Positions 30,230-53,902 of a stretch of DNA of 64,000 nucleotides are shown piece by piece. Source of the DNA: Comamonadaceae bacterium. Its GTDB lineage: Bacteria > Pseudomonadota > Gammaproteobacteria > Burkholderiales > Burkholderiaceae_C. Under the pieces are notes generated by a model that worked only from the letters and a program-made list of their open reading frames with translations, was not told the origin of the DNA and made no database searches. The position numbers and the translations under genes were made by a program. Where the stretch lies: assembly GCA_947453965.1 (NCBI GenBank), contig CANGIQ010000007.1, positions 1 through 64,000 of the forward strand, read 5' to 3'. How positions within the stretch are numbered: the first letter of the stretch is position 1; every line of letters starts with the position of its first letter.

Positions 30230-30239
30230 CACAGACACC

Positions 30240-31167: not shown

Positions 31168-31234
31168 GGGTAGAGGGCTTGGGCAGGTTCCTCATACTGG
31201 TCCAGAAATCGTCACCTGCCCAAGCCCTCTACCC
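31168..31234. repeat. perfect 21-bp inverted repeat between ureD and urtE
   Basis: Arms 31168-31188 and 31214-31234 are perfect reverse complements of 21 bases around a 25-base loop that itself holds a small CTGG-T-CCAG hairpin. It lies between the convergent ureD and urtE stops. It has no T-run. The likely role is bidirectional termination or 3'-end protection. Confidence 0.6.
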
Positions 31235-31275
31235 CCAGACTGCGGCTGGCATTGTTTCCGTACGACAGTAAAAAC

Positions 31276-31995
31276 TCAAATGGCAACAAGCTGACGCACG
31301 TTGTCGCGCTGCATGTCTGATCCCAGACCACGCGCAATCACCTCACCGCGTTCCATCACCAAGTAATCGTCTGCAAGCTCTTCTGCAAAGTCGTAATACT
31401 GCTCGCACAGCACAATGGCCATGTCCCCACGACCAGCCAACATGCGAATGACGCGGCCAATGTCTTTGATGATGCTGGGCTGAATGCCTTCGGTGGGCTC
31501 GTCTAGCACCAACAGCTTGGGGCCTGAGGCCAAAGCGCGTGCGATGGCGAGTTGCTGTTGCTGGCCGCCAGACAAATCACCCCCTCGGCGATGGATCATT
31601 TGCTTTAACACCGGGAACAGCTCAAACAACTCAGCCGGAATGTCTGTCCCCGCAGGCTGTGTGGCCAGGCCCATGCGCAAGTTGTCTTCGACGGTGAGGC
31701 GGGCAAAAATTTCACGCCCTTGTGGCACATAGCCAATGCCAGCGCGCGCACGTTCATACGGCGCCGCTTTTTCAATGGCTTGGCCGTTGAAAGTGATGCT
31801 GCCGTCACGAATTGGCACCGCGCCCATGAGCGATTTGAGTAAGGTGGTTTTGCCCACACCGTTGCGACCCAAGAGCACCGTGATGCGGCCCAAATGGGCC
31901 TCAAAGCTCACGTCGCGCAAGATGTGCGAGCCACCATAGAACTGGTTGATGTGTTGGACTTGAAGTAAAGGCATGGTGTCTGTTTGCATATTCAT
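31276..31995 (-). CDS. urtE: urea ABC transporter ATP-binding protein UrtE
   Basis: UrtE is one of the two ATPases of the high-affinity urea ABC importer (HAAT family). The 239-aa product has the signature start LLQVQHINQFYGGSHILRDV, Walker A GRNGVGKTT, the ABC signature LSGGQQQQLA and Walker B LLVLDEPTEGIQPS. Its ATG overlaps the urtD stop (ATGA). It is the last gene of urtABCDE and is convergent with ureD. Confidence 0.94.
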   Translation of the reverse strand: MNMQTDTMPLLQVQHINQFYGGSHILRDVSFEAHLGRITVLLGRNGVGKTTLLKSLMGAVPIRDGSITFNGQAIEKAAPYERARAGIGYVPQGREIFARLTVEDNLRMGLATQPAGTDIPAELFELFPVLKQMIHRRGGDLSGGQQQQLAIARALASGPKLLVLDEPTEGIQPSIIKDIGRVIRMLAGRGDMAIVLCEQYYDFAEELADDYLVMERGEVIARGLGSDMQRDNVRQLVAI

Positions 31996-32864
31996 CGGCC
32001 CAAATACACCTCAATCACGCGCTCATCCGCTTGCACTTGGGCAAGCGTGCCTTGCGCCAACACTGAGCCGTCGCACAAAACGGTGACGATATCGGAGATG
32101 GTGTTGATAAAACTCATGTCGTGCTCCACCACCATCAGGGAGTGTTTGCCTTTGAGGGTCAAAAACAATTCGGCGGTGCGCTCGGTTTCAAAGTCGGTCA
32201 TGCCAGCCACGGGTTCGTCCAGCAACAAAAGCTTGGGGTCTTGCATGAGCAACATGCCAATCTCCAGCCACTGCTTTTGGCCGTGACTCAAATTGCCCGC
32301 TTGGGCGTTGACGCTGTCTTCCAAATGGATGGTGTGCAGCACCTCGCTCAAACGGTCGCGCTGCGTGCCGTTGAGTCGAAAGAACATCGAGGCCGCCACA
32401 CCTTTGTGGGTTTTCAATGCAAGCTCTAAGTTTTCAAACACGCTCAGGTGTTCAAACACGGTGGGTTTTTGAAACTTGCGACCAATGCCGAGTTGGGCAA
32501 TTTCGGGTTCGTTGTGGCGCAGCAAGTTGATGGTGCTGCCAAAGAACACCTGGCCCGAGTCGGGTTTGGTCTTGCCAGTGATGATGTCCATCATCGTGGT
32601 CTTGCCGGCGCCGTTGGGGCCAATGATGCAGCGCAGCTCACCCGGTGCAATGTCCAGCGACAAATTGTTGATAGCCTTGAAGCCATCAAAGCTCACGTTC
32701 ACATCTTCCAAATACAAGATGCGTCCATGGGTCAGGTCTAAGCTGCCGGGTTCGTGCACCCGGCCATAGCCTGCACTGCGGTCACCCGACGTCACCTCAT
32801 TCACCACCCGCGCTTGATGGCTGGCCAAGCGCTCGGCGCCTTGTTCAAACAGATCGGGGGTCAT
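31992..32864 (-). CDS. urtD: urea ABC transporter ATP-binding protein UrtD
   Basis: UrtD is the second ATPase of the urea importer. The 290-aa product has Walker A GPNGAGKTT, the signature LSHGQKQWLEIGMLL typical of LivG/UrtD proteins, Walker B LLLLDEPVAGM and the DFETERTAELF region of UrtD. About 50 extra N-terminal residues precede the ABC core. ATG 32864 overlaps the urtC stop by an ATGA; a longer frame reaching 32975 lies inside urtC. Confidence 0.93.
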   Translation of the reverse strand: MTPDLFEQGAERLASHQARVVNEVTSGDRSAGYGRVHEPGSLDLTHGRILYLEDVNVSFDGFKAINNLSLDIAPGELRCIIGPNGAGKTTMMDIITGKTKPDSGQVFFGSTINLLRHNEPEIAQLGIGRKFQKPTVFEHLSVFENLELALKTHKGVAASMFFRLNGTQRDRLSEVLHTIHLEDSVNAQAGNLSHGQKQWLEIGMLLMQDPKLLLLDEPVAGMTDFETERTAELFLTLKGKHSLMVVEHDMSFINTISDIVTVLCDGSVLAQGTLAQVQADERVIEVYLGR

Positions 32865-33997
32865 ACACGCTCCTCTGTATTTTTCTTGGCGCCAATTTTT
32901 TGTATCAGACCCATCACACCGTGAGGCAAATACAGCGTCACTCCGATGAACAAGGCACCCAAAAAGTACAACCAAAATTCAGGCGCCGTCACCGTCAACC
33001 AGCTCTTCATGCCGTTGACCAAGAAGGCTCCCACGATGGGGCCAATCAACGAAGCACGTCCGCCCACAGCGGCCCACACCGCCATCTCAATCGAGTTGGC
33101 AGGGCTCATTTCGCTGGGGTTGATGATGCCCACCTGTGGCACATACAAAGCCCCGGCAATGCCGCACATCACAGCAGAGATGATCCAAATCGTCAGCTTG
33201 TAAGGCAAAGGCGAATAGCCCGAGAACATGACACGGCTCTCGGCATCGCGTATGGCCTGCAACACGCGACCAAACTTGCTTTGCACCAACCAGCGCGCAA
33301 ACAAGTAGCAACCCAACAAGGTGCCCCCGGTCATGACAAACAAGGTCATGCGCATGCTGGGTGTGGCGATGGGCAAGTCCAAGATGCGTTTGAAGTCGGT
33401 GAAGCCGTTGTTGCCACCAAACCCCGTTTCGTTACGAAAGAACAGCAGCATGGCCGCAAAAGTGAGCGCCTGCGTGATGATGGAGAAGTACACCCCTTTG
33501 ATACGCGAACGAAACGCAAAGTAACCAAACACACCGGCCAACACGCCAGGTACCAAAACGATCAGCAACACGGTGGCCAAAAAGCTGTCGCTGAAGGTCC
33601 AATGCCAAGGCAAGGTTTTCCAATCGAGGAACACCATGAAGTCCGGCAAATTGCTTTTGTAGTTGCCATCGGTGCCGATCTGGCGCATCAGGTACATGCC
33701 CATGACGTAGCCACCGAGCGCAAAGAACAAGCCGTGACCGAGTGACAAGATGCCGGTGTAGCCCCAGATCAAATCCATAGCCAACGCGCAGATGGCGTAA
33801 CACATGATCTTGCCGACCAAGGCCACGGCGTAGTCGCTCATGTGGAACACGCTGCCTGCCGATACCCACAGGTTGAGCACAGGCACCACGCCGCACACGA
33901 CGATGAGCATCGCCACAAAGACAGCCCAGCCTTTGGGGCTCAACAAAGCAGGAGGGGCAGGCAATTGCACAGGAGAGGAATTCATAGAAGTTGTCAT
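32861..33997 (-). CDS. urtC: urea ABC transporter permease UrtC
   Basis: UrtC is a LivM-type membrane subunit of the urea importer. The 378-aa product has about nine to ten hydrophobic segments, the GHGLFFALGGYVMGMYLMRQ region and the permease loop AIRDAESRVMFSGYSPLPYK. ATG 33997 has GAGG six bases upstream and follows the urtB stop by one base; 34012 is an alternative inside urtB. Confidence 0.93.
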   Translation of the reverse strand: MTTSMNSSPVQLPAPPALLSPKGWAVFVAMLIVVCGVVPVLNLWVSAGSVFHMSDYAVALVGKIMCYAICALAMDLIWGYTGILSLGHGLFFALGGYVMGMYLMRQIGTDGNYKSNLPDFMVFLDWKTLPWHWTFSDSFLATVLLIVLVPGVLAGVFGYFAFRSRIKGVYFSIITQALTFAAMLLFFRNETGFGGNNGFTDFKRILDLPIATPSMRMTLFVMTGGTLLGCYLFARWLVQSKFGRVLQAIRDAESRVMFSGYSPLPYKLTIWIISAVMCGIAGALYVPQVGIINPSEMSPANSIEMAVWAAVGGRASLIGPIVGAFLVNGMKSWLTVTAPEFWLYFLGALFIGVTLYLPHGVMGLIQKIGAKKNTEERV

Positions 33998-33998
33998 A

Positions 33999-35612
33999 TC
34001 AAGCCTCGGCACTTCTGCCCTTCATCGCAAACAAACCTTGTGGGCGTTTTTGGATGAAGACAATGATGAACACCAGGACCGCGATCTTGGCCAATACGGC
34101 ACCGGCCACGCCTTCGAGCAGCTTGTTCATGAGGCCCAAACCCATGGCGGCATACACCGTGCCAGCGAGTTGACCCACACCACCGAGCACCACCACCATG
34201 AAGGCGTCCACGATGTAGCTCTGGCCCAGGTCAGGGCCCACGTTGCCAATTTGGCTGAGTGCGCAACCGGCCAGACCTGCAATGCCACAACCGAGCGAGA
34301 ACGCGTAGGTGTCAATGCGTGCGGTGTTCACGCCCAAGGCCGAGGCCATGGGACGGTTTTGCGTCACACCACGCACAAACAAACCCAAACGTGTTTGGCT
34401 GATCAAGAGCGTCATGCCCACCAACACAAACAGTGCAAAACCAAGAATGACCAAGCGGTTGTAGGGCAGCGACAAGTTGGCCAGCAACTGCACGCCACCG
34501 CTCATCCACGATGGGTTTTCAACCCCCACGTTTTGCGCGCCAAAAATACTGCGCACACCTTGCATCAACACCAAGCTGATGCCCCAGGTAGCCAGCAGCG
34601 TTTCGAGCGGGCGACCATACAAATGGCGCAAAACCAAACGCTCCAATACCGCACCCACCAAGGCTGCGGCGAAAAACGACGCGGGCACGGCCACCAACAA
34701 ATACGCATCAAACATGTCGGGCAAATACTGACGAAACAGTCCTTGCACCACATAGGTGGCATAAGCGCCAATCATCATCAACTCGCCGTGCGCCATGTTG
34801 ATCACGCCCATCAAGCCGTAGGTGATGGCTAGCCCCAAGGCGACCAACAACAAAATAGAACCCAAGCTGATGCCGGTGAACAAGGCGCCGAGTTTCTCAC
34901 CCCAGCTCAAGGCTGCTTGGATGGTGCGCAGCGAGGTTTGCAACTGGGCACGTACGTGTTGGTTGTCTTCTTGGCTCAGACGTTGGTTGAGCAAGAGTTG
35001 GGTATCGGGGGTTTGACTCTCAGCCAAAGTTTTGGCCGAGGCCAAGCGTTCATCGGCGTTGTCGCTGTTGAGCAAGATGGCCGAGCGGGCCAACAACATG
35101 TGTTTTTTGACGCCCTCGTCCGCTTCGCTGCTCAAGGCTTTTTCCAACATGGCGAGCTTGGTGGGATCGGGCTCTTTCAACACCGACTTGGCGGCTTGCA
35201 CACGCAAGGCGGCATCGGGACTGAGCAGTTGCAGGGCCGACAAAGCGGCGTCAATCTCACCGCGCATGCGGTTGTTGTTGATCACGTCTTCTGCACTGTC
35301 GGGCAGGGCTGTGGCTTGACCACTCACGGGGTCGATCACTTGGCCATCGCGCACAACGAGCACTTGGGTGCCATTGACCTTCACAGCGTCATCGGCCATG
35401 GCTTGCAAAAAGGCAGCGGTTTGGGCGTCGGGTGAGGCCAAGGCTTTTTGCAGGGCACTCACACGTGCATCGGTGTCACCCAACGTGAGCGCTTGCGCTT
35501 GCTCCACCGTCAATGCCAAGGCAGATGCCTGGCTGAAGATGCCGAGTGCCAAGGCACATGCGCTGCGCAGCACCAGCTGACGTGTCCATGCAGGTAAAGA
35601 AAAACAAGTCAT
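33999..35612 (-). CDS. urtB: urea ABC transporter permease UrtB
   Basis: UrtB is the LivH-type membrane subunit, distinguished from ordinary LivH by a long periplasmic N-terminal domain. The 537-aa product has a signal-like segment (about 10-33, ending SQASALA), a roughly 200-residue Ala/Leu-rich soluble region with repeat-like helices, then the permease (about 250-537) with GEKLGALFTGISLGSILLLV and VLRHLYGRPLETLLATWGIS regions. I chose ATG 35612 because upstream candidates fall within or at the T-run of the terminator hairpin 35625-35651. Confidence 0.9.
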   Translation of the reverse strand: MTCFSLPAWTRQLVLRSACALALGIFSQASALALTVEQAQALTLGDTDARVSALQKALASPDAQTAAFLQAMADDAVKVNGTQVLVVRDGQVIDPVSGQATALPDSAEDVINNNRMRGEIDAALSALQLLSPDAALRVQAAKSVLKEPDPTKLAMLEKALSSEADEGVKKHMLLARSAILLNSDNADERLASAKTLAESQTPDTQLLLNQRLSQEDNQHVRAQLQTSLRTIQAALSWGEKLGALFTGISLGSILLLVALGLAITYGLMGVINMAHGELMMIGAYATYVVQGLFRQYLPDMFDAYLLVAVPASFFAAALVGAVLERLVLRHLYGRPLETLLATWGISLVLMQGVRSIFGAQNVGVENPSWMSGGVQLLANLSLPYNRLVILGFALFVLVGMTLLISQTRLGLFVRGVTQNRPMASALGVNTARIDTYAFSLGCGIAGLAGCALSQIGNVGPDLGQSYIVDAFMVVVLGGVGQLAGTVYAAMGLGLMNKLLEGVAGAVLAKIAVLVFIIVFIQKRPQGLFAMKGRSAEA

Positions 35613-35624
35613 CCAGATTCCCAT

Positions 35625-35651
35625 AAAAAAGGGGAGGGCCATGCCCTCCCC
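35625..35651 (-). terminator. terminator/attenuator between urtA and urtB
   Basis: On the minus strand GGGGAGGGC-ATG-GCCCTCCCC is followed by six T. It sits 25 bases after the urtA stop and 12 before the urtB ATG. A partial terminator here would let the binding protein UrtA be made in excess over the membrane subunits. Confidence 0.75.
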
Positions 35652-35675
35652 CAAGTTCATCCCTCGGAGAAAGGT

Positions 35676-36950
35676 TTACTTCTTCACAGGCTCATCAGGC
35701 TTGGAGGCATTGCCTTCGATGAAGGGGCTCCATGGCTTGGCTTTAACGGGACCTGGTGTTTTCCAGACCACGTTGAACTGACCATCGGCCTTGATCTCGC
35801 CAATGAACACCGACTTGTGCAAGTGGTGGTTCTTTTCGTCCATCTTGGAGGTAATACCGCTCGGTGCCTTGAAGGTTTGACCAGCCATCGCCGCGATGAC
35901 TTTGTCCACATCGGTGGACTTGGCCTTCTCTACCGCTTGCTTCCACATGTTGATGCCGATGTAGGTCGCTTCCATCGGGTCGTTGGTCAAAGGCTTGTCT
36001 TTGTGACCGGCGATGTTGTGTGTCTTGGCATAAGCCGACCACTTCTTGATGAACTCGTCGTTGGCTGGGTTCTTGATGCTCATGAAGTAGTTCCATGCTG
36101 CCAAGTGACCGACCAAAGGCTTGGTGTCCACGCCGCGCAATTCCTCTTCACCGACCGAGAAGGCCACCACGGGCACGTCTTTGGCTTTCAAGCCTGCGTT
36201 GCCGAGCTCTTTGTAGAAAGGCACGTTGGAGTCACCGTTGATGGTGGAGACCACAGCGGTTTTGCCACCGGCAGAAAACTTCTTGATGTCGGCCACGATG
36301 GTCTGGTAATCGCTGTGACCAAAGGGTGTGTATTTCTCGTCGATGTCGCTGTCTTTCACGCCTTTGCTCTTGAGGTAAGCACGCAAAATTTTGTTGGTGG
36401 TGCGTGGGTACACATAGTCGGTACCCAACAAGACCCAACGCTTGGCCGCGCCGCCGTCTTTGCTCATCAGGTAATCCACCGCAGGAATGGCTTGCTGGTT
36501 GGGCGCCGCGCCGGTGTAGAACACGTTTTTGCTGAGTTCTTCACCCTCATATTGCACGGGATAGAACAACAGACCGTTCATTTCTTCGACCACGGGCAGC
36601 ACCGATTTGCGTGACACCGAAGTCCAGCAACCGAAGATGACCGACACCTTGTCTTGACCGAGCAACTGCTTGGTTTTCTCAGCAAACAAAGGCCAATTGG
36701 AAGCGGGGTCCACCACCACGGGCTCGAGCTTCTTGCCCAACACGCCACCCTTGGCGTTGATTTCGTCGATGGCCATCAACACGGTGTCTTTCAACACGGT
36801 CTCGGAAATCGCCATGGTGCCGGACAAGCTGTGCAGCACGCCGACTTTGATGGTGTCTGCGGCCAGCGCTTGTGGCGCAATGGCAAACGATCCGACCGAC
36901 AGCGCTGCAGCTGTGGCCAGGGCCTTGAGGTTTCCTCGACGATTCATCAT
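35676..36950 (-). CDS. urtA: urea ABC transporter substrate-binding protein UrtA
   Basis: UrtA captures urea in the periplasm and delivers it to UrtBC. The 424-aa product has a signal peptide (about 1-30, ending APQALA) and the family core IKVGVLHSLSGTMAISETVLKD. Further on are GCWTSVSRKSVLPVVEE, YPVQYEGEE and KLGTDYVYPRTTN-like regions specific to UrtA within the Leu/Ile/Val-binding superfamily. It starts at ATG 36950 with TTGGAG upstream. A sigma-54-like promoter lies 53 bases further up. Confidence 0.95.
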   Translation of the reverse strand: MMNRRGNLKALATAAALSVGSFAIAPQALAADTIKVGVLHSLSGTMAISETVLKDTVLMAIDEINAKGGVLGKKLEPVVVDPASNWPLFAEKTKQLLGQDKVSVIFGCWTSVSRKSVLPVVEEMNGLLFYPVQYEGEELSKNVFYTGAAPNQQAIPAVDYLMSKDGGAAKRWVLLGTDYVYPRTTNKILRAYLKSKGVKDSDIDEKYTPFGHSDYQTIVADIKKFSAGGKTAVVSTINGDSNVPFYKELGNAGLKAKDVPVVAFSVGEEELRGVDTKPLVGHLAAWNYFMSIKNPANDEFIKKWSAYAKTHNIAGHKDKPLTNDPMEATYIGINMWKQAVEKAKSTDVDKVIAAMAGQTFKAPSGITSKMDEKNHHLHKSVFIGEIKADGQFNVVWKTPGPVKAKPWSPFIEGNASKPDEPVKK

Positions 36951-37013
36951 GGGGTTCACTCCAAAAAAGTTTTCAACAAACGCAAAGCTTCTCAACTTGC
37001 TCGTGAAAGCTTT

Positions 37014-37030
37014 TGCAAAGCCCATGCCAA
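37014..37030 (-). promoter_or_regulatory. sigma-54-like promoter of urtABCDE
   Basis: The minus strand reads TTGGCATGGGCTTTGCA, 12 of 13 informative positions of the sigma-54 consensus with GG and GC exactly 10 bases apart. The start would be near 37003, giving a 53-base leader to urtA with a ribosome binding site. This is the best of the three elements. Confidence 0.65.
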
Positions 37031-37090
37031 CTCCGTGCGTCCCCAGAAGAAAAACATCTCGCTATAAGAAGCCAAACAGATCTACCAGAC

Positions 37091-37163
37091 GCGCACCAAC
37101 ATTGGTCATACCCATAAAAACGCACCACACAACGCACTCATAGCGTGCACAAGCGCGTGCACC
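37091..37163. promoter_or_regulatory. possible activator-binding region between urtA and ureA
   Basis: The 301-base divergent gap has many GCAC/GTGC elements. GCACCAACATTGGTC (37093-37107) and GTGCACAAGCGCGTGCAC (37145-37162) are near-palindromes resembling NtrC sites. Their half-site spacing is one base longer and one base shorter than the NtrC consensus respectively. They are reasonable enhancer candidates for the flanking sigma-54-like promoters but not proven. Confidence 0.3.
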
Positions 37164-37221
37164 AACTCGGATTATTTGCACCAAAGTCTGCACATTGCAC
37201 CGAAACCGCGTGTGCACAACA

Positions 37222-37238
37222 GGGCACGCAAGTTGCAT
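37222..37238 (+). promoter_or_regulatory. sigma-54-like promoter of ureA operon
   Basis: GGGCACGCAAGTTGCAT has GG (37223-37224) and GC (37235-37236) 10 bases apart, with 11 of 13 informative positions of the consensus. The start would be near 37248, only about four bases before the ureA ATG, which has no ribosome binding site. A nearly leaderless mRNA or another promoter is therefore implied. Confidence 0.5.
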
Positions 37239-37251
37239 AGAAAAACCCACT

Positions 37252-37554
37252 ATGGAACTCACACCCCGCGAAAAAGACAAGCTGTTGATTTTCACCGCCG
37301 CCTTGCTGGCCGAACGCCGACAAGCCCGTGGTCTGAAACTCAACTACCCCGAGGCCGTGGCCCTCATCAGCGCCGCCGTGATGGAAGGCGCGCGTGACGG
37401 CAAGACCGTGGCCCAACTCATGAGCGATGGGCGCCATGTGCTGAGCCGTGCCGACGTGATGGAGGGCGTGGCCGAGATGATTCCGGACATCCAAGTCGAA
37501 GCAACCTTCCCCGACGGCACCAAGCTCGTGACTGTTCATCAACCCATTGTTTGA
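37252..37554 (+). CDS. ureA: urease subunit gamma
   Basis: UreA is the small gamma subunit of the (UreABC)3 urease that hydrolyses urea to ammonia and carbamate. The 100-aa product is canonical: [40 protein letters not shown], then [18 protein letters not shown] at the end. ATG 37252 is the family start; the longer frame from 37195 is discarded. It is the first gene of ureA-ureG. Confidence 0.97.
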
Positions 37555-37564
37555 GAGAAATACC

Positions 37565-37729
37565 ATGCAACGATTGATCTGCGCATTTGCACTCCTGCCC
37601 GTCTGGGCTCAGGCCCATGAAGGCCACGGTATGGAAGGGGCTTCGCACTACCACGCCACCGATGCGTGGGGATTTTTTGCAGCGCTGGCTGTGGTTGCCG
37701 CCATGTGGTGGATGGGCCGTGGCAAATAA
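37565..37729 (+). CDS. small His-rich membrane protein between ureA and ureB
   Basis: A 54-aa open frame, MQRLICAFALLPVWAQAHEG and onward, with a GAGAG ribosome binding site 10 bases after the ureA stop. It has a signal-like N-terminus (cleavage after AQA), a short His-rich stretch HEGHGMEGASHYH, and a C-terminal membrane helix AWGFFAALAVVAAMWWMG. Four histidines in 13 residues suggest metal binding, possibly nickel, at the periplasmic face. It separates the normally adjacent ureA and ureB. I do not know a named family. Confidence 0.7.
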   Translation: MQRLICAFALLPVWAQAHEGHGMEGASHYHATDAWGFFAALAVVAAMWWMGRGK

Positions 37730-37741
37730 AGCGAGGCACAC

Positions 37742-38077
37742 ATGACACCCGGTGAATTGTTGATTGACGAGGGTGAGCACACCCTCAACCCAGGACGGCG
37801 CACGCACACCTTGGTGGTGCAAAACGCCAGCGATCGCCCCATCCAAGTGGGCTCGCACTACCACTTTGCAGAAACCAATGCGGGCTTGCGCTTTGACCGC
37901 GAAGCTGCACACGGCATGCGTTTGAACATCGCCTCGGGCACTGCCGTGCGCTTTGAGCCGGGCCAACAACGCACGGTCGAGTTGGTCGATCTGAGTGGTG
38001 ATCGCCAGGTGTTTGGCTTTCGCGGTTTGGTGAATGGTGCGGTAGATCAGGGCGTCGCCGATAAAGGACACAAGTAA
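37742..38077 (+). CDS. ureB: urease subunit beta
   Basis: UreB is the beta subunit of urease. The 111-aa product has the family start [19 protein letters not shown], the [17 protein letters not shown] core and the [11 protein letters not shown]-type tail (here [11 protein letters not shown]). It begins 12 bases after the small membrane-protein gene and its stop overlaps the ureC ATG by one base. Confidence 0.96.
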
Positions 38078-39852
38078 TGGCAACCATTGGCAAACGCGCT
38101 TACGCCGAAATGTTTGGCCCCACTGTGGGTGACCGTCTGCGCTTGGCAGACACCAACTTGGTGGTGGAAGTTGAAAAAGACTTCACCCTGCAAGCAGGCG
38201 AGGGGCGAACAGACGCCAACGGGAACCCCGTTGGCTATGGCGAAGAAGTGAAATTTGGTGGCGGCAAAACCATCCGCGATGGCATGGCCCAATCGCAACG
38301 CACACGCGACGGTGCAGGCACCGGCCCGCAAGCGGGCGGCGCAGTCGACACCGTGATGACCAATGCACTCATCATTGACCACTGGGGCATTGTCAAAGCC
38401 GACATCGGTTTGAAAGGTGGCCGCATTGTGGCCATTGGCAAAGCGGGCAACCCCGACACCCAACCGGGCGTAGATATCGTCATTGGCCCAGGGACCGAGG
38501 TGATCAGCTGCGAAGGCCACATCGTCACCGCAGGTGGGGTGGACACACACATCCACTTTATTGCGCCCCAGCAAATTGAAGAAGCCTTGACCAGTGGCGT
38601 GACCACCATGCTCGGCGGCGGCACAGGACCTGCCACAGGCACCCTTGCCACCACCTGCACACCTGGTGCTTGGAACATTGAACGCATGTTGCAAGCAGCC
38701 GATGCTTTCCCCATGAACTTGGGTTTCTTAGGCAAAGGCAATGCGGCTCTGCCCGATTCGCTGCACGAGCAAATCAACGCCGGTGCGATTGGTTTGAAAC
38801 TGCATGAAGACTGGGGCACCACCCCTGCCGCGATTGACAACTGCTTGAACGTGGCAGAAGCCACCGACACCCAAGTGGCCATCCACACCGACACGCTCAA
38901 CGAAAGTGGCTTTGTGGAAGACACGGTGGCGGCCTTCAAAGGCCGCACCATCCACACCTTCCACACCGAAGGTGCAGGCGGCGGCCACGCACCCGATATT
39001 TTGAAAGTGGTGGGCGAAGCCAATGTGTTGCCCAGCTCCACCAACCCAACACGCCCGTACACAGTCAACACACTCGACGAGCATGTGGACATGCTCATGG
39101 TGTGCCACCACCTCGACCCCGCGATTGCCGAAGACTTGGCCTTTGCCGAGAGCCGTATCCGCCGCGAGACGATTGCCGCCGAAGACATCTTGCACGACCT
39201 CGGTGCCATCAGCATGATGAGCAGCGACAGCCAAGCCATGGGGCGGGTGGGCGAGGTCATCATCCGCACCTGGCAAACCGCGCACAAGATGAAAGCACAG
39301 CGCGGCCAATTACCGGGCGACTCAGACCGTCATGACAACTTCCGCGTCAAACGCTACATCGCCAAATACACCATCAACCCCGCGATTGCACATGGCATCA
39401 GCCACGAGGTGGGCAGTGTGGCCGTGGGCAAATGGGCCGACTTGGTGGTGTGGAAGCCCGCGTTCTTTGGCATCAAGCCCAGCATCATTTTGAAAGGTGG
39501 CTTCATCGCCATGGCGGCCATGGGTGACCCCAATGCGTCCATTCCCACGCCACAGCCTGTGCACTACCGCCCCATGTTTGGTGCGTATGGCGGTGCGCTG
39601 CACCGTGGTTCGCTCACCTTTGTGTCGCAAGCAGGCATGGCGGCGGGCATTGGGCAAAAGTTTGGTCTGCATAAAATACTGAGCGCGGTGAAGAACATCC
39701 GCAGCGTCGGCAAACGTGACATGATTCACAACGACTACGCGCCACGCATGGAAGTGGATGCCCAAACCTACACCGTGCGCGCCGATGGTCATGTGCTCAC
39801 CTGCGAACCTGCGGTGAGTTTGCCGATGACGCAACGCTATTTCTTGTTCTGA
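38077..39852 (+). CDS. ureC: urease subunit alpha (catalytic)
   Basis: UreC holds the dinuclear nickel site. All ligands are present: H158 and H160 (THIHF), carbamylated K241 (GLKLHEDWG), H270, H296 and Asp384 (SSDSQAMGR), with the mobile-flap His in MVCHHLD. Every ligand is shifted by +24 relative to the 567-aa Klebsiella enzyme. This places a 24-residue insertion upstream of residue 134, most likely the Gln/Gly-rich segment [18 protein letters not shown] (about 71-88). At 591 aa it is otherwise full length. It overlaps ureB and ureE by one base each. Confidence 0.97.
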
Positions 39853-40334
39853 TGCTCACCTGTTCTAAATTAATCCCTGGCGGCCAAGGCTTGGCCGCTG
39901 CCTTGATCAAACGCGCTGCGACCGTCGAGTTGGATTGGGATGTGCGCCAAAAGAGCCGCTTTGATGCGACCGACTCCACGGGGCGGGCGTTTGGCGTGTT
40001 CTTACCCCGCGGCAGCTTGGTGCGCGGCGGTGATGTGCTGGTGCTGGAAGACGGTTCGCTCGTGCGTGTGCAGGCTGCGCCGCAAGAAGTACTGCGCATC
40101 ACAGCTTGCACAGAACATGGTTCACCCTTTGATTTGACGCGTGCCGCCTACCACCTGGGCAACCGTCACGTGCCCATCGAACTCAAGCCAGATCATTTGA
40201 AGATTGAACCTGACCATGTGCTGGCCGACATGCTGCGCGCCATGCACATGACGGTGGTGACTGTGCATGAGGCCTTCGAGCCAGAAGGTGGTGCGTACAG
40301 CAGCCACGGACATTCACATGGACATGAGCACTGA
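39852..40334 (+). CDS. ureE: urease accessory protein UreE (nickel metallochaperone)
   Basis: UreE delivers nickel to the urease assembly complex. The 160-aa product has the N-terminal peptide-binding domain, the [15 protein letters not shown]-like strand ([14 protein letters not shown]) and [12 protein letters not shown]. It ends in a short metal-binding tail [11 protein letters not shown] with five histidines. The 3' end overlaps the start of ureF by about 17 bases. Confidence 0.94.
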
Positions 40335-41031
40335 CGTAACCAGCGCAGCGCAGCCTTTCACGCCCGCGCTGATTCAACTCATTTGGCTCGCGTCACCCGC
40401 ATTGCCGATTGGTGGCTTCTCGTATTCCGAAGGTTTAGAAGCGGCGATCGACCATGGCTTCGTGCATGACGAACACAGCGCAGCAAATTGGCTGGTGGAC
40501 CAACTCCACCTCACCCAGTCGCGGGGTGACATGGCGGTGCTGGGTCACATGGTGATCGCTTGGCAAACACATGACCACACCCGCCTGGAAGCACTCAGCC
40601 AATGGGTGCATGCCACCCGCGAAAGCGCCGAGTTGCGTTTGCAAAGCGAGCAAATGGGACGCTCCATGCTGGAGTGGTTGCGCAACCAAAACGCCATCGA
40701 CGGTGACACCATCGCCGTGTGCAACCGCTGGGTACCCACCTACCCGCTGATGTTTGCCTTGGCCTTGTCGCGCACCGGTGCGTCGCTCGAACAATGCCTG
40801 CAAGCTTATGCCTTTGGCTGGGCCGAAAACATGGTGCAAGCCGCCATCAAGTCGGTACCGCTCGGGCAAAACTCGGGACAGCGCATCTTGACTCAACTCG
40901 CCCAACACATCGCACCTGCAGTGAAGCATGCCTTGCAAGTGAATGACGAGAGCCGCCAAGCCTTCTCCCCCATGTTGGCCATTTTGTCGGCCCAACACGA
41001 AACCCAATATTCCAGACTGTTCAGATCATGA
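40318..41031 (+). CDS. ureF: urease accessory protein UreF
   Basis: UreF joins UreD and UreG in the urease activation complex. The 237-aa all-helical product has the family motif [25 protein letters not shown] and the [19 protein letters not shown] region. ATG 40318 (or 40324) lies inside the ureE 3' end with GGA seven bases upstream; its stop overlaps the ureG ATG (ATGA). Confidence 0.93.
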
Positions 41032-41684
41032 GCCATTTACACACCATCGCCCACCGTACCAAAAAGCTCCCCCCCTTGCGCGTGGGCATTGGCGGCCCCG
41101 TGGGATCGGGCAAAACCACCTTGCTTGAGATGCTGTGCAAGGCCATGCGCGAGCAGTACGACCTGGTGGCCATCACCAACGACATTTACACCAAAGAAGA
41201 CCAGCGCTTGCTCACCGTCAGCGGCGCCTTGCCTGCCGAACGCATCATGGGCGTAGAGACCGGCGGCTGTCCACACACAGCCATTCGCGAAGATGCCTCG
41301 ATCAATCTTGAAGCAATTGACCGCATGTTGGTCGACTTTCCCAACGCCGATGTGGTGTTCATTGAGAGTGGTGGCGACAACTTGGCCGCGACTTTCAGCC
41401 CTGAATTGAGCGACCTCACCATTTACGTGATCGACGTCGCAGCGGGCGAGAAGATTCCGCGTAAAGGTGGTCCTGGCATCACCAAGAGCGATTTGTTTGT
41501 GATCAACAAAACCGACCTCGCGCCCCACGTAGGCGCTGACTTGGCCGTGATGGAGGCCGACACCATCCGCATGCGTACCCATGCGCAAGGTTTAAAACCT
41601 TTTGTGATGACCAATTTGCGCACCTTGGACGGCTTGCAAGCGGTGATTCGTTTCATCGAAACCAAAGGCATGTTGCGCGCATAA
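41028..41684 (+). CDS. ureG: urease accessory GTPase UreG
   Basis: UreG is the SIMIBI GTPase that powers nickel insertion. The 218-aa product has the P-loop [11 protein letters not shown], the nickel-binding Cys-Pro-His in [11 protein letters not shown], the [15 protein letters not shown] motif, and NKTD for guanine recognition. It is the last classical urease gene and is followed after 10 bases by a histidine kinase gene. Confidence 0.96.
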
Positions 41685-47832: not shown

Positions 47833-48990
47833 TCAGTGAAATGCGTCAGCCACACAAGCACGATCACGCCCCGCATTCTTGGCGGCATAAAGCGCTTCAT
47901 CGGCGTGTTTGATCGTGGCCAGCAAATCTTCGGCGTGCTGATGTGCCGCCACGCCAATTGACAAAGAGAACTTGGCAATTTGTTGTTCACCCAGCATCAC
48001 GTTTTGTTCGCGTATTTGTTGGACGATGCTTTGTGCAATTTTTTCTGCATCGGCTAGGCCGCAATTGGGCAAGATGGCGCAAAACTCCTCACCCCCATAG
48101 CGTCCCAGCACATCATCAATGCGCATGGCATTCATCAACAAGCGGGCGCAGTGCGCAAGCACCTTATCGCCTCCCAAATGACCAAAACTGTCGTTGATCG
48201 ATTTGAAATGATCAATGTCAATCATTAACACAGCGTACGCATCGCTCGATTGTGTGATGCGCGTGGCGTCTTCAAAAAAAGCACGGCGTGTCAATACACC
48301 GGTTAACACATCGCGGCGACTGAGCGCTTCAATCAGGTTGCGTTGGTGTTCGTGCACCATCACAAAAAAACCAATCGATGAACTCACGATGAACAAAGCG
48401 CCAACGATGAGAACGCCCAATTGACTGGCTGAGTTACCAATCGTCCCCGAGGTTGGCTGCGCTGCCAAAACAGTGACAACCGCTCTGAAGCAATACATCG
48501 CGGCCATGATGCCCAATGTAGAAGCCAACAAAATCACTGAGAAAGAGAACGGGCGCTGAGACTTTTTGACAATCAACGCGCAGGCATCAAACAAAATGGC
48601 CGACAGTGCCACGCAGACGGTGACCGTTGGCACGGTCAGCGAAAAGCCACCCCACAGCCACAACAACAAGCCCGCCATACCCGCAGTAAATACAGCCATG
48701 CACCTGCGCACAGGGAAGGCCGTTTCATAAAACTTAGAAACGGTAGCAAGACATGCTGAGGCCGAAAAAAGCAGAATGACGTTTGCAAGGAAGATTCCGA
48801 AGATTTCGGGAATTTGCCCTCGCAAAAAAATCAACACCATGGCCACACCGGCACTGGCCGAGGCCATTGACCATTGCTTGAAACCGTAATCCCGCTCGCT
48901 GCTGGTGGAGCCCAACAGCCACGCCATGAGTGAGATCAACAGCGCCAACAGTGCAAGTGCGAACAACAAGGTTCGCGCGTCTAATTCCAT
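47833..48990 (-). CDS. membrane diguanylate cyclase (GGDEF domain)
   Basis: Makes cyclic di-GMP from GTP. The 385-aa protein has about seven hydrophobic segments (1-210) followed by a GGDEF domain. The active site reads GGEEF (GRYGGEEFCAIL). An RxxD inhibitory site (RIDD) sits five residues before it, so product inhibition is expected. The conserved DIDHFKSINDSFGHLGGDKVL is intact. The membrane part may sense a small signal; no EAL domain is present. It is divergent from the cytochrome-porin gene, 92 bases apart. Confidence 0.93.
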   Translation of the reverse strand: MELDARTLLFALALLALLISLMAWLLGSTSSERDYGFKQWSMASASAGVAMVLIFLRGQIPEIFGIFLANVILLFSASACLATVSKFYETAFPVRRCMAVFTAGMAGLLLWLWGGFSLTVPTVTVCVALSAILFDACALIVKKSQRPFSFSVILLASTLGIMAAMYCFRAVVTVLAAQPTSGTIGNSASQLGVLIVGALFIVSSSIGFFVMVHEHQRNLIEALSRRDVLTGVLTRRAFFEDATRITQSSDAYAVLMIDIDHFKSINDSFGHLGGDKVLAHCARLLMNAMRIDDVLGRYGGEEFCAILPNCGLADAEKIAQSIVQQIREQNVMLGEQQIAKFSLSIGVAAHQHAEDLLATIKHADEALYAAKNAGRDRACVADAFH

Positions 48991-49082: not shown

Positions 49083-50498
49083 ATGCGCAAGTGCTTAACC
49101 ACCATCGTGATCGTTTTTGCAGGCTTGCAGGCAAGCTTTACTGCGCACGCCCTGCCTTCCTTCTCCGAACAAACCGAACTCGCTTGCAAAGTCTGCCATT
49201 TGAATATCGGTGAACTGACCCCCACAGGGCGTCAGTTCAAGCTCAAAGGCTACACGCAAGGCACGCGTGTCATGCCGTTCTCATTCACAGCAACGGCTTC
49301 TGTCACCAAGGTCAAAAGCACATCAAGCAGCGCAGACCCCAGCGTGACGATGCCTAAAAATGGCAAACCAATTCCTGAAGAAGCCAATCTTTATGTGGCC
49401 GGTAAGTTGTCAGACCATCTCGGGGGAAATATCAAGTGGACGGCCAGCGCGGCCAACACCGACCCGCTGTATGGCAGCTCAGGCGTACAAACGGGTACAC
49501 GTGTTGGCCATGATTTTTTTCTTGATGCCAGTGATCTGCGGTTTGCAAAGCAAGACCAAGTGGGAACAAACACCCTCGCATGGGGTGTGACGCTGAACAA
49601 TGCACCCGCCAGCCAAGACCTATGGAACACCACGCCTGTTCACACCTTTCCGTATCGAACGTCCAGCTTGCTGAATGCCTGGGGCACCGGTCAGTTTGGC
49701 CCCACCACCATGATGGATGGTGGTCTGAGTTCGCAAACAACAGGGCTCGGCATATATGCCATGCTGAATGACACCATTTATGTGGAGCTGAGTAACTACT
49801 TCAGCTCTTCGCCTCATTTATCGGCCTTGCAGCTGTCAGGCCAAGTGAACACCATCAGCGCCAACGCCAATCCGTATTGGCGATTGGCGTGGAACCATGT
49901 CAAGGGCCACCATTCGTACATGGTGGGCACGTTTGGCATGGTGACGCATTTGGCCCGCGACCCGTATGTGGCGGGGTCAGCGTCTGGAAAGTACACCGAC
50001 ATCGGGTTGGACGCGCAGTACCAGCACATCACAGACACGCATTCACTCTCTGCACAAGCCGCCTACATTCATGAACAAGTCGATTGGGGCGCGCGATCTG
50101 TGGGGCGCAGCCATGACAACCCCTCTGGGAATTTGTCCACATTCAAAACCAAATTGACCTACGACTACGCGCGGACCTACGGTTCTAGCGTTTTCTATTT
50201 CAAAACCAACGGCAGCACCGACAACTTGTACTGGTCATACAACGCAGCTGCAACGACAGGTGCTTGTAACCAAACCAACTCCATGCTGGCTTATTGTTCC
50301 GCCACGGGCACACCGAAAACGAGCGGCATGGGCCTTGAGCTTTATTACGCACCTCAGCCCAATGTCCATATCGCACTCCAACAAACTTATTACAAAAACT
50401 TTTTAGGTGGTTCGACTTTTATCGACAACACGTCAGGCAATAACCGCGCAGCCAGTGACAACAACCTGACTTATTTGTACATCACCTACGCACACTGA
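49083..50498 (+). CDS. fused monoheme cytochrome c-outer-membrane porin, Cyc2-like
   Basis: A 471-aa exported protein. After a signal peptide (about 1-24) comes a tiny cytochrome domain, PSFSEQTELACKVCH, with one CxxCH heme site (C35-C38-H39), then LTPTGRQFKLKGYTQG. From about residue 70 the rest is an outer-membrane beta-barrel of alternating strands ending YLYITYAH. This order, and the SFxxQTxxxCxxCH...LTPxGRxFKLxGY text, is that of Cyc2-type fused cytochrome-porins known as outer-membrane iron oxidases. Related proteins in other bacteria have unknown donors. No other electron-transport gene is adjacent, so iron oxidation is only a possibility. Confidence 0.72.
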   Translation: MRKCLTTIVIVFAGLQASFTAHALPSFSEQTELACKVCHLNIGELTPTGRQFKLKGYTQGTRVMPFSFTATASVTKVKSTSSSADPSVTMPKNGKPIPEEANLYVAGKLSDHLGGNIKWTASAANTDPLYGSSGVQTGTRVGHDFFLDASDLRFAKQDQVGTNTLAWGVTLNNAPASQDLWNTTPVHTFPYRTSSLLNAWGTGQFGPTTMMDGGLSSQTTGLGIYAMLNDTIYVELSNYFSSSPHLSALQLSGQVNTISANANPYWRLAWNHVKGHHSYMVGTFGMVTHLARDPYVAGSASGKYTDIGLDAQYQHITDTHSLSAQAAYIHEQVDWGARSVGRSHDNPSGNLSTFKTKLTYDYARTYGSSVFYFKTNGSTDNLYWSYNAAATTGACNQTNSMLAYCSATGTPKTSGMGLELYYAPQPNVHIALQQTYYKNFLGGSTFIDNTSGNNRAASDNNLTYLYITYAH

Positions 50499-50616: not shown

Positions 50617-50775
50617 ATGAGATTTGCATTCGTTACATCTTTGATATCAGCCGCGCTCATCGCCCTCGTGAGTGCTGTTTCCGTGGTGATTCTTTCTTGG
50701 GTTTATCCAAGTGTTTCAACCCATGAATCATCACCAGAGATGAAAACAGAAATTTCGTGGGGCCAAGGGAGTTAA
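50617..50775 (+). CDS. small membrane-anchored protein ending in WGQGS
   Basis: A 52-aa open frame. The N-terminal 30 residues are a membrane or signal segment (MRFAFVTSLISAALIALVSA...), followed by a short tail ending MKTEISWGQGS. The next gene encodes a longer protein with the same layout and an EIKWGEGS motif at the same position, so this may be a truncated sister copy. The stop is 2 bases before the next ATG. The function is unknown. Confidence 0.5.
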   Translation: MRFAFVTSLISAALIALVSAVSVVILSWVYPSVSTHESSPEMKTEISWGQGS

Positions 50776-50777: not shown

Positions 50778-51206
50778 ATGAAACCTCGTTTGATCATTGC
50801 GTTGATGCTGTCTATCGCCAGCATCAGTACCGCATCCATGCTGTTCTTAGATGCCCCGTCCAAGTCATCGGCCAAGCGCGTGACATCGCAGCCCACGATA
50901 GAAATTAAGTGGGGCGAGGGCTCCGAAGCTGGGGTACCCGAGGCCACGACAACCCTGAATACAAATTCAGCGCCCGTCAACGTCGATGAAACCTATGTCT
51001 TTGCTGGCAAGTGTTCTAACGGCAATTCCTATCGGATTGTTTCGTATCAAAAAGTCTCGTCCGGCACTGTACGCTCGTACTACGACTACAGCGGTCCTGC
51101 GGGAACTGGGACGATCCAATCAGAAACTGAGCCCAAAGTCATGGCCGTTCGCGTCTGTCGCAGCGCAGCAGAAATCATCAGTGCCCAGTATTGGGAATCG
51201 CGCTGA
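50778..51206 (+). CDS. exported or membrane-anchored protein of unknown function
   Basis: A 142-aa protein with an N-terminal hydrophobic segment (about 4-22, RLIIALMLSIASISTASML), the motif IEIKWGEGS at about 48-56, and a C-terminal soluble domain containing two Cys (GKCSNGNSYR and VRVCRSAAE) likely to form a disulfide. AGGGAG lies 7 bases before ATG 50778. Its first half parallels the 52-aa neighbour. It sits between the cytochrome-porin and a NarL-type regulator. No family recognised. Confidence 0.65.
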   Translation: MKPRLIIALMLSIASISTASMLFLDAPSKSSAKRVTSQPTIEIKWGEGSEAGVPEATTTLNTNSAPVNVDETYVFAGKCSNGNSYRIVSYQKVSSGTVRSYYDYSGPAGTGTIQSETEPKVMAVRVCRSAAEIISAQYWESR

Positions 51207-51418: not shown

Positions 51419-52045
51419 ATGGATGCACTTTACAAGAAATCACTGCTCATTATTGATGACCATCCGGTCTACCGTGATGCATTGAGTGAAAAGCTCGCCA
51501 GTGAATTTGCTTCCGACGGCATTCATGTGGCGGTTGCAAGCAATGCCAGTGAGGGCTTGGACGTGATTGCGCAGTCCAACAAGCACTGGGTCATCTTGCT
51601 GGATATTTTGATGCCTGGACTCAGCGGTCTTGCAGGGATCAAAATTTTCAAAGAGTTGGACAACGTCGAACAAGTGGTCGCCATTTCAGGACTCGACGAA
51701 CACTCGTGGGAGCCCAAAACGGTTTCAGCCGGTGCTTCCATGTTTTTGTCTAAAAACAGCACGGCCGAATTCATTGTGCGCAAACTCAGACCTCTGATGA
51801 CGCTTCAATCAGAGTACGTTGCCACCAACAAAAACCCGGAGCCCAAAGAATTCCGACTCACGCAGCGCCAGCTTGAGGTGTTGGATTTAATTTCACGTGG
51901 TCATCCGAACAAAGTGATCGCAGATTACCTGGACATCAGCGAACAGACGGTGAAGATCCACATCAACCAAATCTTCAAAGAGCTGCGCGTTTTCAACAGA
52001 ACGCAGGCCGTGCTCAAGGCTCAAAAGCACCAACTGCTGCCGTGA
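51419..52045 (+). CDS. NarL/LuxR-type response regulator
   Basis: A 208-aa two-domain regulator. The receiver has IIDDHP, phospho-acceptor Asp62 (LLDILMPGLSG) and a conserved Lys in FLSKNS. The C-terminal LuxR-type helix-turn-helix reads LTQRQLEVLDLISRGHPNKV then LDISEQTVKIHINQIFKEL. It is followed after 6 bases by a hybrid kinase, its likely phosphate donor. Confidence 0.9.
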   Translation: MDALYKKSLLIIDDHPVYRDALSEKLASEFASDGIHVAVASNASEGLDVIAQSNKHWVILLDILMPGLSGLAGIKIFKELDNVEQVVAISGLDEHSWEPKTVSAGASMFLSKNSTAEFIVRKLRPLMTLQSEYVATNKNPEPKEFRLTQRQLEVLDLISRGHPNKVIADYLDISEQTVKIHINQIFKELRVFNRTQAVLKAQKHQLLP

Positions 52046-52051: not shown

Positions 52052-53902
52052 GTGAGCCACGTTATCTTTGAAATCAGCCCCCGCAAGGACAACAAAGCCG
52101 TGAAGCTCAATTCCGAACTGAGTGAAGACAGTCATGCCAAGCTGAAAGAAGATGAGCTGAACAAGGTGTATTTGATGCGCGAGAAATCAGCGCACATCAC
52201 CAAAGCCGCACGCTCAGCCACCCTCGCCAATGTGTTGGCACCTTTGCTCTGCATTCCGGTGTTCAAAGGCGAAGTTGATCCTTTGCATTTAGACATTTGG
52301 CTCAGCTACATGTTCAGTGTGGTGGTGATTCGGACTTGGATCGTGTTTCAGTTGGAATACAAAGCCGAGGCCATTGTTGACCCCAGACATAACTTGCGCA
52401 TGATGACCTATGCCGTGGGTATTGTGGGATTTGGCTGGGGATTGGGCTGGGTCTTGATGGCGCCCGATTTGCTCATGGTGAATCGGATGATTTATGTGTA
52501 CATGATCACGGCCGCAATGATTGCCGGCATGTTTGCATACAGCGTGAACAACGCCACGTTTTTAGCGTTCACACTCCCGATCATGATTCCGTCATTGAGC
52601 ACGGCCTTGTGGTCACTCGATTTCTTGCCTTGGCCATTTACCGTCGGTTTGGCTTCGCTCTACATCGTTGTGTTTAGCATTGCGAAAAATTTCGCCAAAA
52701 CATTTGAAGAATCCGTCAGCTTTAGATTTCGCAATGAACGGCTGTACCAAGAGTTGGCCAATGAGCGCGACCAATCAGTCGCTGCCAATGTGGCGAAATC
52801 GAAATTCATTGCCGTGGCCAGCCATGACTTGCGACAGCCCATGCATGCGGTGAACGTGTACCTGGATTTGGTGAATATCGACAACTTGCCCGTGGCAGAA
52901 CAAAAGTCGATGGCCAAAATCAAAAACAGCATCACAGCACTCAACGCTATGTTCGACTCTTTGCTCAACATCAGCAAGCTCGATGCCGATGTGATGCAGG
53001 TCAACGAACGGGTTTTCAGGCTGGAAGAGCTGGCAAGCACGCTGCACGACTTGACCGAAACAAAAGCCAACAACAAAGGACTGACGTTAAACATCATCTA
53101 TCCTGAGTTGATTGTTCGCGGCGATAAGCTCTTGCTTCAGCAAATCATGACCAACTTGGTGGCCAACGCCATTCAATACACAGAGGGCGGTGAGATTGAA
53201 GTGAAGTTCGACACCGAGCAAGATCACTTGGTGATGGCAGTTCGTGACACAGGTTGCGGCATTGCAGAGTCAGAGCAGCAGCAAATTTTTCAGCAATTTT
53301 TCCGTGCCGACAAAACACGCGCCTTGCACGATGGCTTGGGGCTTGGCTTATCCATTGTCAAACGGTTGTGCGATCTGATTGGGGCAGAAATTCGCGTCGT
53401 CTCGCAAGAGGGCGTAGGTTCGCGCTTTATCGTGAAAACAACATTTCTAGCGTCTGCCAGCGAAGAAGAAATTAACCTCACCCGAGTTCTCGCGCCACCA
53501 AACAATACGCAGCAAAGCCTCCAAGGCAAATGCATCGCGGTGATTGAAGACAACCCGATCATCGTCGAAGCTTACCGACACACACTGGTGAACAAAGGGG
53601 CTTATGTTCAGGTTTTGTCTGAGTATGAGGACGAACTAGACATTCAGCTTGAAACCATTGACCACATCGACTGTGTTCTCTGCGACTACCGCTTGAGCGA
53701 AACGACAGGCGATCGTTTGATTGAAAAAATTCGAGAAAACTTCAACGAAGAAATTCCAGCCATCATCGTGACGGCAGATACATCGCCCTCACACATCAAT
53801 CTGTTTGCAAAACTCAACGTGCAAGTGCTTCACAAACCCATCAGTTTTCAAGAAATTGCACAGGCCATTGAGAAAACAATCCATCTCTGCGAAGCCAAGT
53901 AA
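52052..53902 (+). CDS. membrane hybrid histidine kinase with C-terminal receiver
   Basis: A 616-aa hybrid sensor. Six or so hydrophobic segments (about 57-212) form the membrane sensor. His258 in AVASHDLRQPMHAV is the phospho-acceptor. The ATPase domain has NLVANAIQYTEGG (N), DTGCGIAE (G1) and DGLGLGLSIVKRL (G2). A receiver domain (about 492-612) with Asp545 (VLCDYRLSETTGD) and the Lys in LHKPIS ends the protein. The start is GTG 52052, with weak ribosome-binding signals, so a slightly shorter N-terminus is possible. It pairs with the upstream NarL-type regulator. Confidence 0.9.
   Translation: MSHVIFEISPRKDNKAVKLNSELSEDSHAKLKEDELNKVYLMREKSAHITKAARSATLANVLAPLLCIPVFKGEVDPLHLDIWLSYMFSVVVIRTWIVFQLEYKAEAIVDPRHNLRMMTYAVGIVGFGWGLGWVLMAPDLLMVNRMIYVYMITAAMIAGMFAYSVNNATFLAFTLPIMIPSLSTALWSLDFLPWPFTVGLASLYIVVFSIAKNFAKTFEESVSFRFRNERLYQELANERDQSVAANVAKSKFIAVASHDLRQPMHAVNVYLDLVNIDNLPVAEQKSMAKIKNSITALNAMFDSLLNISKLDADVMQVNERVFRLEELASTLHDLTETKANNKGLTLNIIYPELIVRGDKLLLQQIMTNLVANAIQYTEGGEIEVKFDTEQDHLVMAVRDTGCGIAESEQQQIFQQFFRADKTRALHDGLGLGLSIVKRLCDLIGAEIRVVSQEGVGSRFIVKTTFLASASEEEINLTRVLAPPNNTQQSLQGKCIAVIEDNPIIVEAYRHTLVNKGAYVQVLSEYEDELDIQLETIDHIDCVLCDYRLSETTGDRLIEKIRENFNEEIPAIIVTADTSPSHINLFAKLNVQVLHKPISFQEIAQAIEKTIHLCEAK

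Follow-up and report, generated by a model that had tools for sequence, protein, structure and literature searches.

Electrons can cross the bacterial outer membrane through a barrel, as in the MtoAB, PioAB and MtrAB systems. In Cyc2PV-1 of Mariprofundus ferrooxydans, a Cluster 1 Cyc2 (PMC8406198), one chain joins a single heme c to a barrel predicted to have 16 strands, the cytochrome domain is proposed to act as a plug at the periplasmic mouth of that barrel, and Fe(II) is oxidised at 208 mV. Strict recognition of Cyc2 in that paper rests on a single CXXCH, an upstream AXPXFAR[Q/K][T/Y] motif and a PXL motif four residues past CXXCH (PMC8406198). For the rus operon of Acidithiobacillus ferrooxidans, PMC10654088 places Cyc1 behind Cyc2. 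Homologs of Cyc2 in organisms not known to oxidise iron have already been described (PMC7029218, PMC8406198), and one of these papers holds that they may have other functions, which should be put to the test (PMC8406198). Cyc2 homologs nevertheless serve as genomic markers of iron oxidation, although many of them belong to organisms in which iron oxidation is not known.

Here we analyse a cytochrome-porin gene of a Comamonadaceae bacterium (assembly GCA_947453965.1). The window referred to below is the whole stretch of DNA analysed, 64,000 nucleotides comprising positions 1 to 64,000 of contig CANGIQ010000007.1. What is new is a divergent clade of cytochrome-porins, found only in one genus, in which sequence comparison suggests that the heme surroundings have changed and the usual partner cytochrome has been lost. 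The window protein probably serves as an electron or redox gate whose role has changed, and not as a standard iron oxidase.

The gene, its predicted fold and its family

The 471-aa open reading frame is intact in the window and runs from an export signal through one CxxCH to a strand-rich C-terminal part (Table 1). The signal is hydrophobic and ends in TAHA, followed by LP; the heme site reads C35-K-V-C38-H39, LTPTGRQFKLKGY occupies residues 45-57, and S28, E29, E32 and G43 are the diagnostic changes of the cytochrome domain. AlphaFold2, run with 77 sequences, returned a model (pLDDT 86.5, pTM 0.86) with helices at residues 26-31, 35-38 and 47-54 of the cytochrome domain and 16 long strands from E66-77 to E462-470. 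Together with the reading of the frame, this confirms the order of parts that an earlier note on this DNA had described from the letters: a signal peptide, a single CxxCH at C35-H39 and then a barrel. A predicted structure without a closed barrel had been named beforehand as the outcome that would count against that description, and the model shows a porin-type barrel.

Table 1. Features of the cytochrome-porin locus, in window coordinates.
Feature	Position	Strand	Basis or remark
GGDEF protein (diguanylate cyclase), divergently transcribed	47833..48990	-	Pfam PF00990, E 1.6e-40
Divergent Cyc2-like fused monoheme cytochrome-porin, 471 aa, ATG start	49083..50498	+	ORF, homologs, AlphaFold2, dN/dS
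Predicted export signal, residues 1-23 (MRK...FTAHA)	49083..49151	+	Sequence reading by eye; AlphaFold2 helix 2-17
Mini cytochrome c domain, about residues 24-60, C35xxC38H39 and LTPTGRQFKLKGY	49152..49262	+	Alignment
16-strand beta-barrel, residues 66-470	49278..50492	+	AlphaFold2; Foldseek to porins
Codon 69, Thr (Met in 115/127 relatives)	49287..49289	+	Alignment
Clade-specific loop GACNQTNSMLAYCS with Cys pair C395/C405, predicted extracellular between strands 13 and 14	50259..50300	+	Alignment; topology inferred from model
Small membrane peptide, 52 aa (...EISWGQGS)	50617..50775	+	Relatives upstream of regulator in L165 and L166
Small exported protein, about 142 aa, without Pfam match	50778..51206	+	Related protein in L166
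LuxR-type response regulator	51419..52045	+	Linked to porin gene in 3 of the 4 closest genomes
Hybrid histidine kinase, NahK/ErcS-like	52052..53902	+	Profile match, 249 bits against a cut-off of 400

Short turns lie on one side of the modelled barrel and long loops on the other, as in porin-type barrels; in the model this alternation is the pattern expected with a periplasmic N-terminus. When the structure was compared with the PDB using Foldseek, the best matches were general porins, namely OmpT of Vibrio cholerae (E 7.7e-9), DcaP and OmpF, with modest TM-scores (about 0.35-0.46 by query and about 0.4-0.6 by target). A canonical paralog from the same genus (L095) was also modelled with 16 strands (pLDDT 86.9, pTM 0.83). 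No solved Cyc2 structure or solved relative was found in a search by sequence. The C-terminal residue of the window protein and of its two closest orthologs is His (codon 50493-50495), as in 3 of the 110 rows of the tree set; this residue is aromatic in 94 of the 110.

Neither Pfam nor NCBIfam gave a match above noise; Pfam hits to a phage and a bacteriocin family (E 0.14 and 0.68) were dismissed as noise. Placement in the superfamily came instead from homolog searches of genome collections. Porin_O_P (PF07396), searched for in the genome that carries the window, gave no match. Counting that genome each time, homologs with the same order of parts occur in 9 of 41 near-relative genomes, in 86 of the 399 genomes searched from the order and in 88 of the 398 from the phylum; the family search found homologs in 32 of 250 genomes. 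Homologs outside the genus align over nearly the full length at about 30-44% identity (E down to 9e-92), the best of them at about 40-44%. Judged from these alignments, the window protein is homologous to the Cyc2 cytochrome-porin superfamily, with common descent across both the cytochrome domain and the barrel, as the Cyc2-type order read in the earlier note had implied.

For the contig scan for relatives, the best 80 of 597 matching stretches were used. Because relatives were picked by a pattern demanding CxxCH and G..F...G[YF], the conservation of these elements among the 127 rows (125 distinct) of the alignment used below is partly built in. Twelve loci that the pattern missed, whose N-terminus is covered and which lie outside the 127 rows (L060, L094, L110, L149, L153 and L158-L164), also have CxxCH; L042 and L132 do not extend over this site.

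Typical members of the family read PxFARQTGxxCxxCH..FPELTPYGRxFKLTGYT. One group of proteins, f51, accounts for 65 of the 88 genomes matched in the phylum search, mostly through the first third of the profile. These proteins, whose N-terminal part is matched by a family profile, read, for example, AIPAFARQTGAACLSCHFMSFPTLSSFGRSFK, and keep FARQTG..C..CHF..FP.L..FGR or something near it. Their sequences fit the published Cluster 1 description of Cyc2, and from this we infer an assignment to the Zetaproteobacteria.

The tree places the Cluster 1-like f51 rows far from the window clade (branch 2.93). The clade itself lies within a large, heterotroph-rich group with homologs from Pseudomonas, Burkholderia, Ralstonia, Chromobacteriaceae and Rhodanobacter, none of which, to our knowledge, are iron users. 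This position agrees with the remark in the earlier note that distant Cyc2 groups occur in organisms not known for iron use. Two nearly identical rows of the tree (L096 and L097, branches 0.013 and 0.004) carry the labels of a Thiobacillus denitrificans and a Rhizobium MAG, so that one of the two is probably mis-binned.

A divergent clade with altered heme surroundings

Proteins of the window type (58-81% identical to the window protein) occur in 13 of 84 genomes of the genus, the window included, and canonical-type proteins (29-39% identical) in 14; both types are present in seven genomes, giving 20 carriers in all. The window gene is single-copy in its own genome, a 2.95-Mb assembly from which the canonical-type paralog is absent. 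Outside the four closest genomes, seven of the nine clade carriers keep a canonical paralog. The nearest relative with a named record, a protein of a Comamonadaceae MAG (L043), is 71% identical to the window protein. In the order search every other match was at most 44% identical, and the best outside the genus stood at 44%.

In a tree of 110 rows, built by a quick method with 10 of the 13 clade members (L130, L131 and L132 were left out), the clade members form one group with SH-aLRT 100 and a stem of 1.32 changes per column. Homologs from Chromobacteriaceae and Neisseriaceae are placed as its sister with SH-aLRT 93, which is under the 95 mark. The clade signature was absent from 29 non-window loci of the family search (28 of them with the motif; five further matches fell outside this set), from 29 non-window loci of the phylum search and from three loci of the order search. 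On this comparison of sequences the divergent clade appears restricted to its own genus among the homologs examined. Full-text literature searches on Cyc2 in freshwater Comamonadaceae or Limnohabitans listed no work on the clade, as judged by title or abstract.

Residues were compared in an alignment of the 13 clade members with the 127 others. C35, C38 and H39 are kept in all 12 clade members with sequence at this site, so the CxxCH is conserved, a point on which the earlier note had said its description could fail. Around this invariant site the surroundings differ. Position 43, the Pro of PXL, is Gly in 13/13 clade members and Pro in 126/127 relatives; position 32, Gly in the relatives, is Glu or Asp in 12/12 clade members and acidic in 0/127. 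At position 29, Arg is found in 120/127 relatives and in seven of 12 clade members, with Glu, Ala or Thr in the other five; the window residue is Glu. G49, R50, F52 and K53 are kept throughout the clade (13/13).

Position 69, on strand 1 just past the cytochrome domain, is Met in 115/127 relatives and in one of the 13 clade members (L128). Of all His and Met columns, only those of His39 and Met69 are conserved in more than 94 of the 127 rows, which makes Met69 of the relatives a plausible distal ligand of the heme. The same Met is absent from three of the four aligned f51 proteins; if f51 is the iron-oxidising family that it resembles, Met would not be needed for Fe(II) oxidation. Two Paludibacterium homologs in the sister group (L049 and L050) likewise lack both the Met and a diheme neighbour and may be a parallel case. 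The clade has also gained residues: C395 and C405 are both Cys in 13/13 clade members and 0/127 others, His315 is present in 13/13 (against 5/127), His344 in 13/13 and His429 in 10/13 (against 0/127).

Measured against the strict description of Cyc2, the window protein has the signal (by eye), the single N-terminal CXXCH, a 16-strand barrel and sufficient length (471 aa against a minimum of 365-400 aa). Its two motifs are changed. In place of AXPXFAR[Q/K][T/Y] the window reads ALPSFSEQT, and 0/13 clade rows pass this motif; PXFAR[QK][TY] is passed by 89/127 other homologs and failed by 38/127. PXL is replaced by GEL in 13/13 clade members and present in 126/127 others, and no other homolog of the 127 fails both motifs together. 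Failure at the strict PXFAR is thus shared with 38 relatives; what distinguishes the clade is the loss of PXL and the combined loss of the two motifs. With both motifs failed, the strict Cyc2 label does not apply and Fe(II) oxidation cannot be assumed for the window protein; it is better described as a cytochrome-porin with a changed heme pocket and neighbourhood.

The sequence is nonetheless maintained. Between the window gene and its three closest orthologs dN/dS is 0.06-0.10, and it is at most 0.12 over the five of ten pairs that were computable, synonymous sites being near saturation and the other pairs saturated. Selection on the window gene is purifying.

Partner cytochromes and neighbouring genes

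Among other homologs, 72 of 116 loci have an ORF with two CxxCH motifs on the same strand within 2.5 kb downstream, 71 of them within 150 bp, and 42 of the 116 lack one anywhere within 2.5 kb, whichever side or strand is considered. The partner gene encodes a two-domain Cytochrom_C protein (representative L073), and all six distinct canonical paralogs examined in the genus have this diheme partner. Downstream of the clade loci the count is 0/11 (L132 was left out, and L131, checked through L173, has none). The earlier note was right that no periplasmic cytochrome adjoins the window gene: no two-CxxCH ORF lies within 5 kb of it on either side or strand, nor any other CxxCH ORF among the ORFs kept between 38000 and 64000 of the window. 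A coupling between loss of Met69 and loss of Cyc1 was considered, a diheme neighbour being present in 0/15 rows without Met and 60/88 rows with it; only five independent changes underlie this pattern (sign test p 0.25-1, not significant), so that the coupling is no more than suggestive.

The module of a porin and a Cyc1-like diheme protein (L073, L095, L103 and others) is widespread outside known iron oxidisers. Near canonical homologs, 8 of 74 loci share an ORF cluster (e.g. L065:3020-5449) represented by a P-type ATPase of metal type that carries YHS domains, a hint that metal detoxification may be involved.

The genome that carries the window has 17 Cytochrom_C domain matches and three Cytochrom_C_asm matches, and a diheme protein on contig C14 with 29-38% identity to six Cyc1-type proteins. 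This host could thus attach heme to the protein and supply it with an electron partner in the periplasm. A search of the same genome for Photo_RC gave no match, although 56 of the 84 genus genomes match. Its one RuBisCO-family match (229.5 bits; a 446-aa frame, G000:C1:127761-128588) is probably a RuBisCO-like (form IV) protein, the full-length high scorers of the genus reaching 408-462 bits. The missing Photo_RC and the low RuBisCO score argue against photo- or lithoautotrophy, and the host is likely a heterotroph. A link of the porin type to phototrophy was rejected, since Photo_RC is split among the carriers (0/4 of the closest, 7/9 of the others) and shows no association with the porin type.

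The signalling genes listed as neighbours in the earlier note, a GGDEF protein, a regulator and a kinase, are all present, but neither association held as a specific one. No ORF beside 11 other clade loci, several with short flanks, clusters with the GGDEF protein; a link to the diguanylate cyclase was set aside on this ground, and its presence looks incidental. The porin gene is linked to the regulator, the hybrid kinase and the small exported peptides in the window and in two further genomes (G343 and G318), the two-component pair adjoining the porin gene in G343 and lying some 5 kb from it in G318. In G332 the porin gene lies elsewhere with the kinase on another contig, and the remaining clade genomes have other neighbour genes. 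Close copies of the kinase (57% identity or more, own included) occur in 13 of 84 genomes, four with and nine without the window porin type, and the other nine porin carriers have kinase matches of only 38-42% or none at E 1e-100. A dedicated two-component system was rejected because the window porin type is missing from nine of the 13 genomes in which a close kinase copy occurs.

The regulator and kinase are preceded by small exported peptides containing EI.WG.GS, to which L165 and L166 add a LysR-type HTH protein. Elsewhere in the window, 28091-41684 holds urease genes (UreD, alpha subunit, UreF and UreG-type) and a branched-chain-type ABC ATPase, with a TonB-dependent receptor just upstream at 28091-30229, perhaps for nickel.

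Possible functions and known systems

We give about an even chance to the reading that the window protein is a one-heme electron exchanger of the Cyc2 superfamily in the outer membrane, with a rebuilt heme pocket and an accessory redox role that is likelier than growth on iron. The exported protein would form a 16-strand barrel in the outer membrane, its N-terminal 40-residue domain carrying one covalent heme c and probably acting as a plug at the periplasmic mouth, a position borrowed from the published Cyc2 model. From outside, a reductant (or an oxidant) that is small and soluble could enter the barrel and exchange an electron with the heme, which would in turn swap it with a diffusible periplasmic cytochrome encoded elsewhere, e.g. 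a c4-type diheme protein, instead of a co-encoded Cyc1. The pocket appears rebuilt: the Pro of PXL is Gly, an acidic residue stands three before the first heme Cys, Arg is partly replaced and Met is lost. With such a pocket, the heme potential or a free coordination site should differ from Cyc2, and the role may be one of redox balancing, metal detoxification or sensing. The superfamily and the barrel fit the outer-membrane electron gate put forward in the earlier note; the gate role itself is putative. Given the changed motifs, the lost Met and the lack of a Cyc1 gene beside it, function cannot be transferred from Cyc2.

A related reading, to which we assign a rather low probability, is a bis-His, low-potential or ligand-binding heme gate of the outer membrane that is not for iron and is decoupled from Cyc1. 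It would draw on the loss of Met, on His315 and His429 at seemingly periplasmic strand ends, on the exchange for Gly of the proline near the proximal His and on the disulfide-like loop outside.

It is unlikely, though only a little more so, that the protein is a working Fe(II) oxidase like Cyc2, its motif changes reflecting drift, with iron entering the barrel to reduce the heme and a c4 cytochrome encoded elsewhere carrying the electron to the oxidase. The shared architecture of the window and canonical models, with 16 strands in each, agrees with this, as do the periplasmic diheme cytochromes and cytochrome c assembly genes of the genome and three observations on the relatives: Met is missing from three of the four aligned f51 proteins, 42 of 116 other loci lack the diheme ORF, and 38 of 127 miss the strict PXFAR. 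Against it, PXL is lost in 13/13 and PXFAR in the 12/12 clade members covering it, and 0/127 relatives miss both. No other sign of lithotrophy was seen in the genome among the few families searched. The retention of canonical paralogs with their partner, in 7/9 of the non-closest carriers and with a diheme gene beside all six examined, suggests that any iron-type chemistry would remain with the paralog.

That the protein is mainly a solute porin whose heme is structural or redox-inactive is quite improbable: the Foldseek matches to general porins and the lost pocket residues would suit it, but CxxCH is invariant in 12/12 despite the changes around it, G49, R50, F52 and K53 are kept in 13/13, and selection is purifying. 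Least probable is a sensor-transducer in the outer membrane, for redox state, gases or metals, that acts together with the two-component system nearby. The heme pocket is changed and the regulator and hybrid kinase lie close in the window, G343 and, at about 5 kb, G318, but close copies of the kinase occur mostly in genomes lacking this porin type, and in G332 the two lie on separate contigs.

One-heme electron exchange across the outer membrane, in an accessory redox role, is still the likeliest mechanism. The clade offers a natural test case, as some genomes of the genus hold both a canonical copy with Cyc1 and a rebuilt-pocket copy without the partner; a comparison of such pairs would reveal the residues that set heme potential and substrate. 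It is also a warning against calling iron oxidation from a CxxCH-plus-porin match alone.

Set beside known systems, the window protein is closest to the heterotroph-rich part of the superfamily (Chromobacteriaceae, Burkholderia, Ralstonia, Pseudomonas and Rhodanobacter), with which it shares the signal, one CxxCH, AxPxF..QT, LTPxGRxFKLxGY and, in the one relative modelled, a 16-strand barrel. From these relatives its clade differs in the Pro of PXL turned to Gly, Gly32 turned acidic, the lost Met69, the extra Cys-pair loops and the absence of an adjacent diheme cytochrome. Cyc2PV-1 has the same N-terminal cytochrome domain and barrel, whereas the Cluster 1-like f51 rows, whose identity we infer, are distant. 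The cytochrome-porin order is shared with Cyc2 of Acidithiobacillus ferrooxidans as well; many relatives lie directly upstream of a Cyc1-like gene, unlike the window clade. In MtoAB, PioAB and MtrAB, by contrast, a multiheme cytochrome sits in a separate, larger barrel, of 26 strands (PMC10654088), whereas the window protein combines one heme and 16 predicted strands in one chain.
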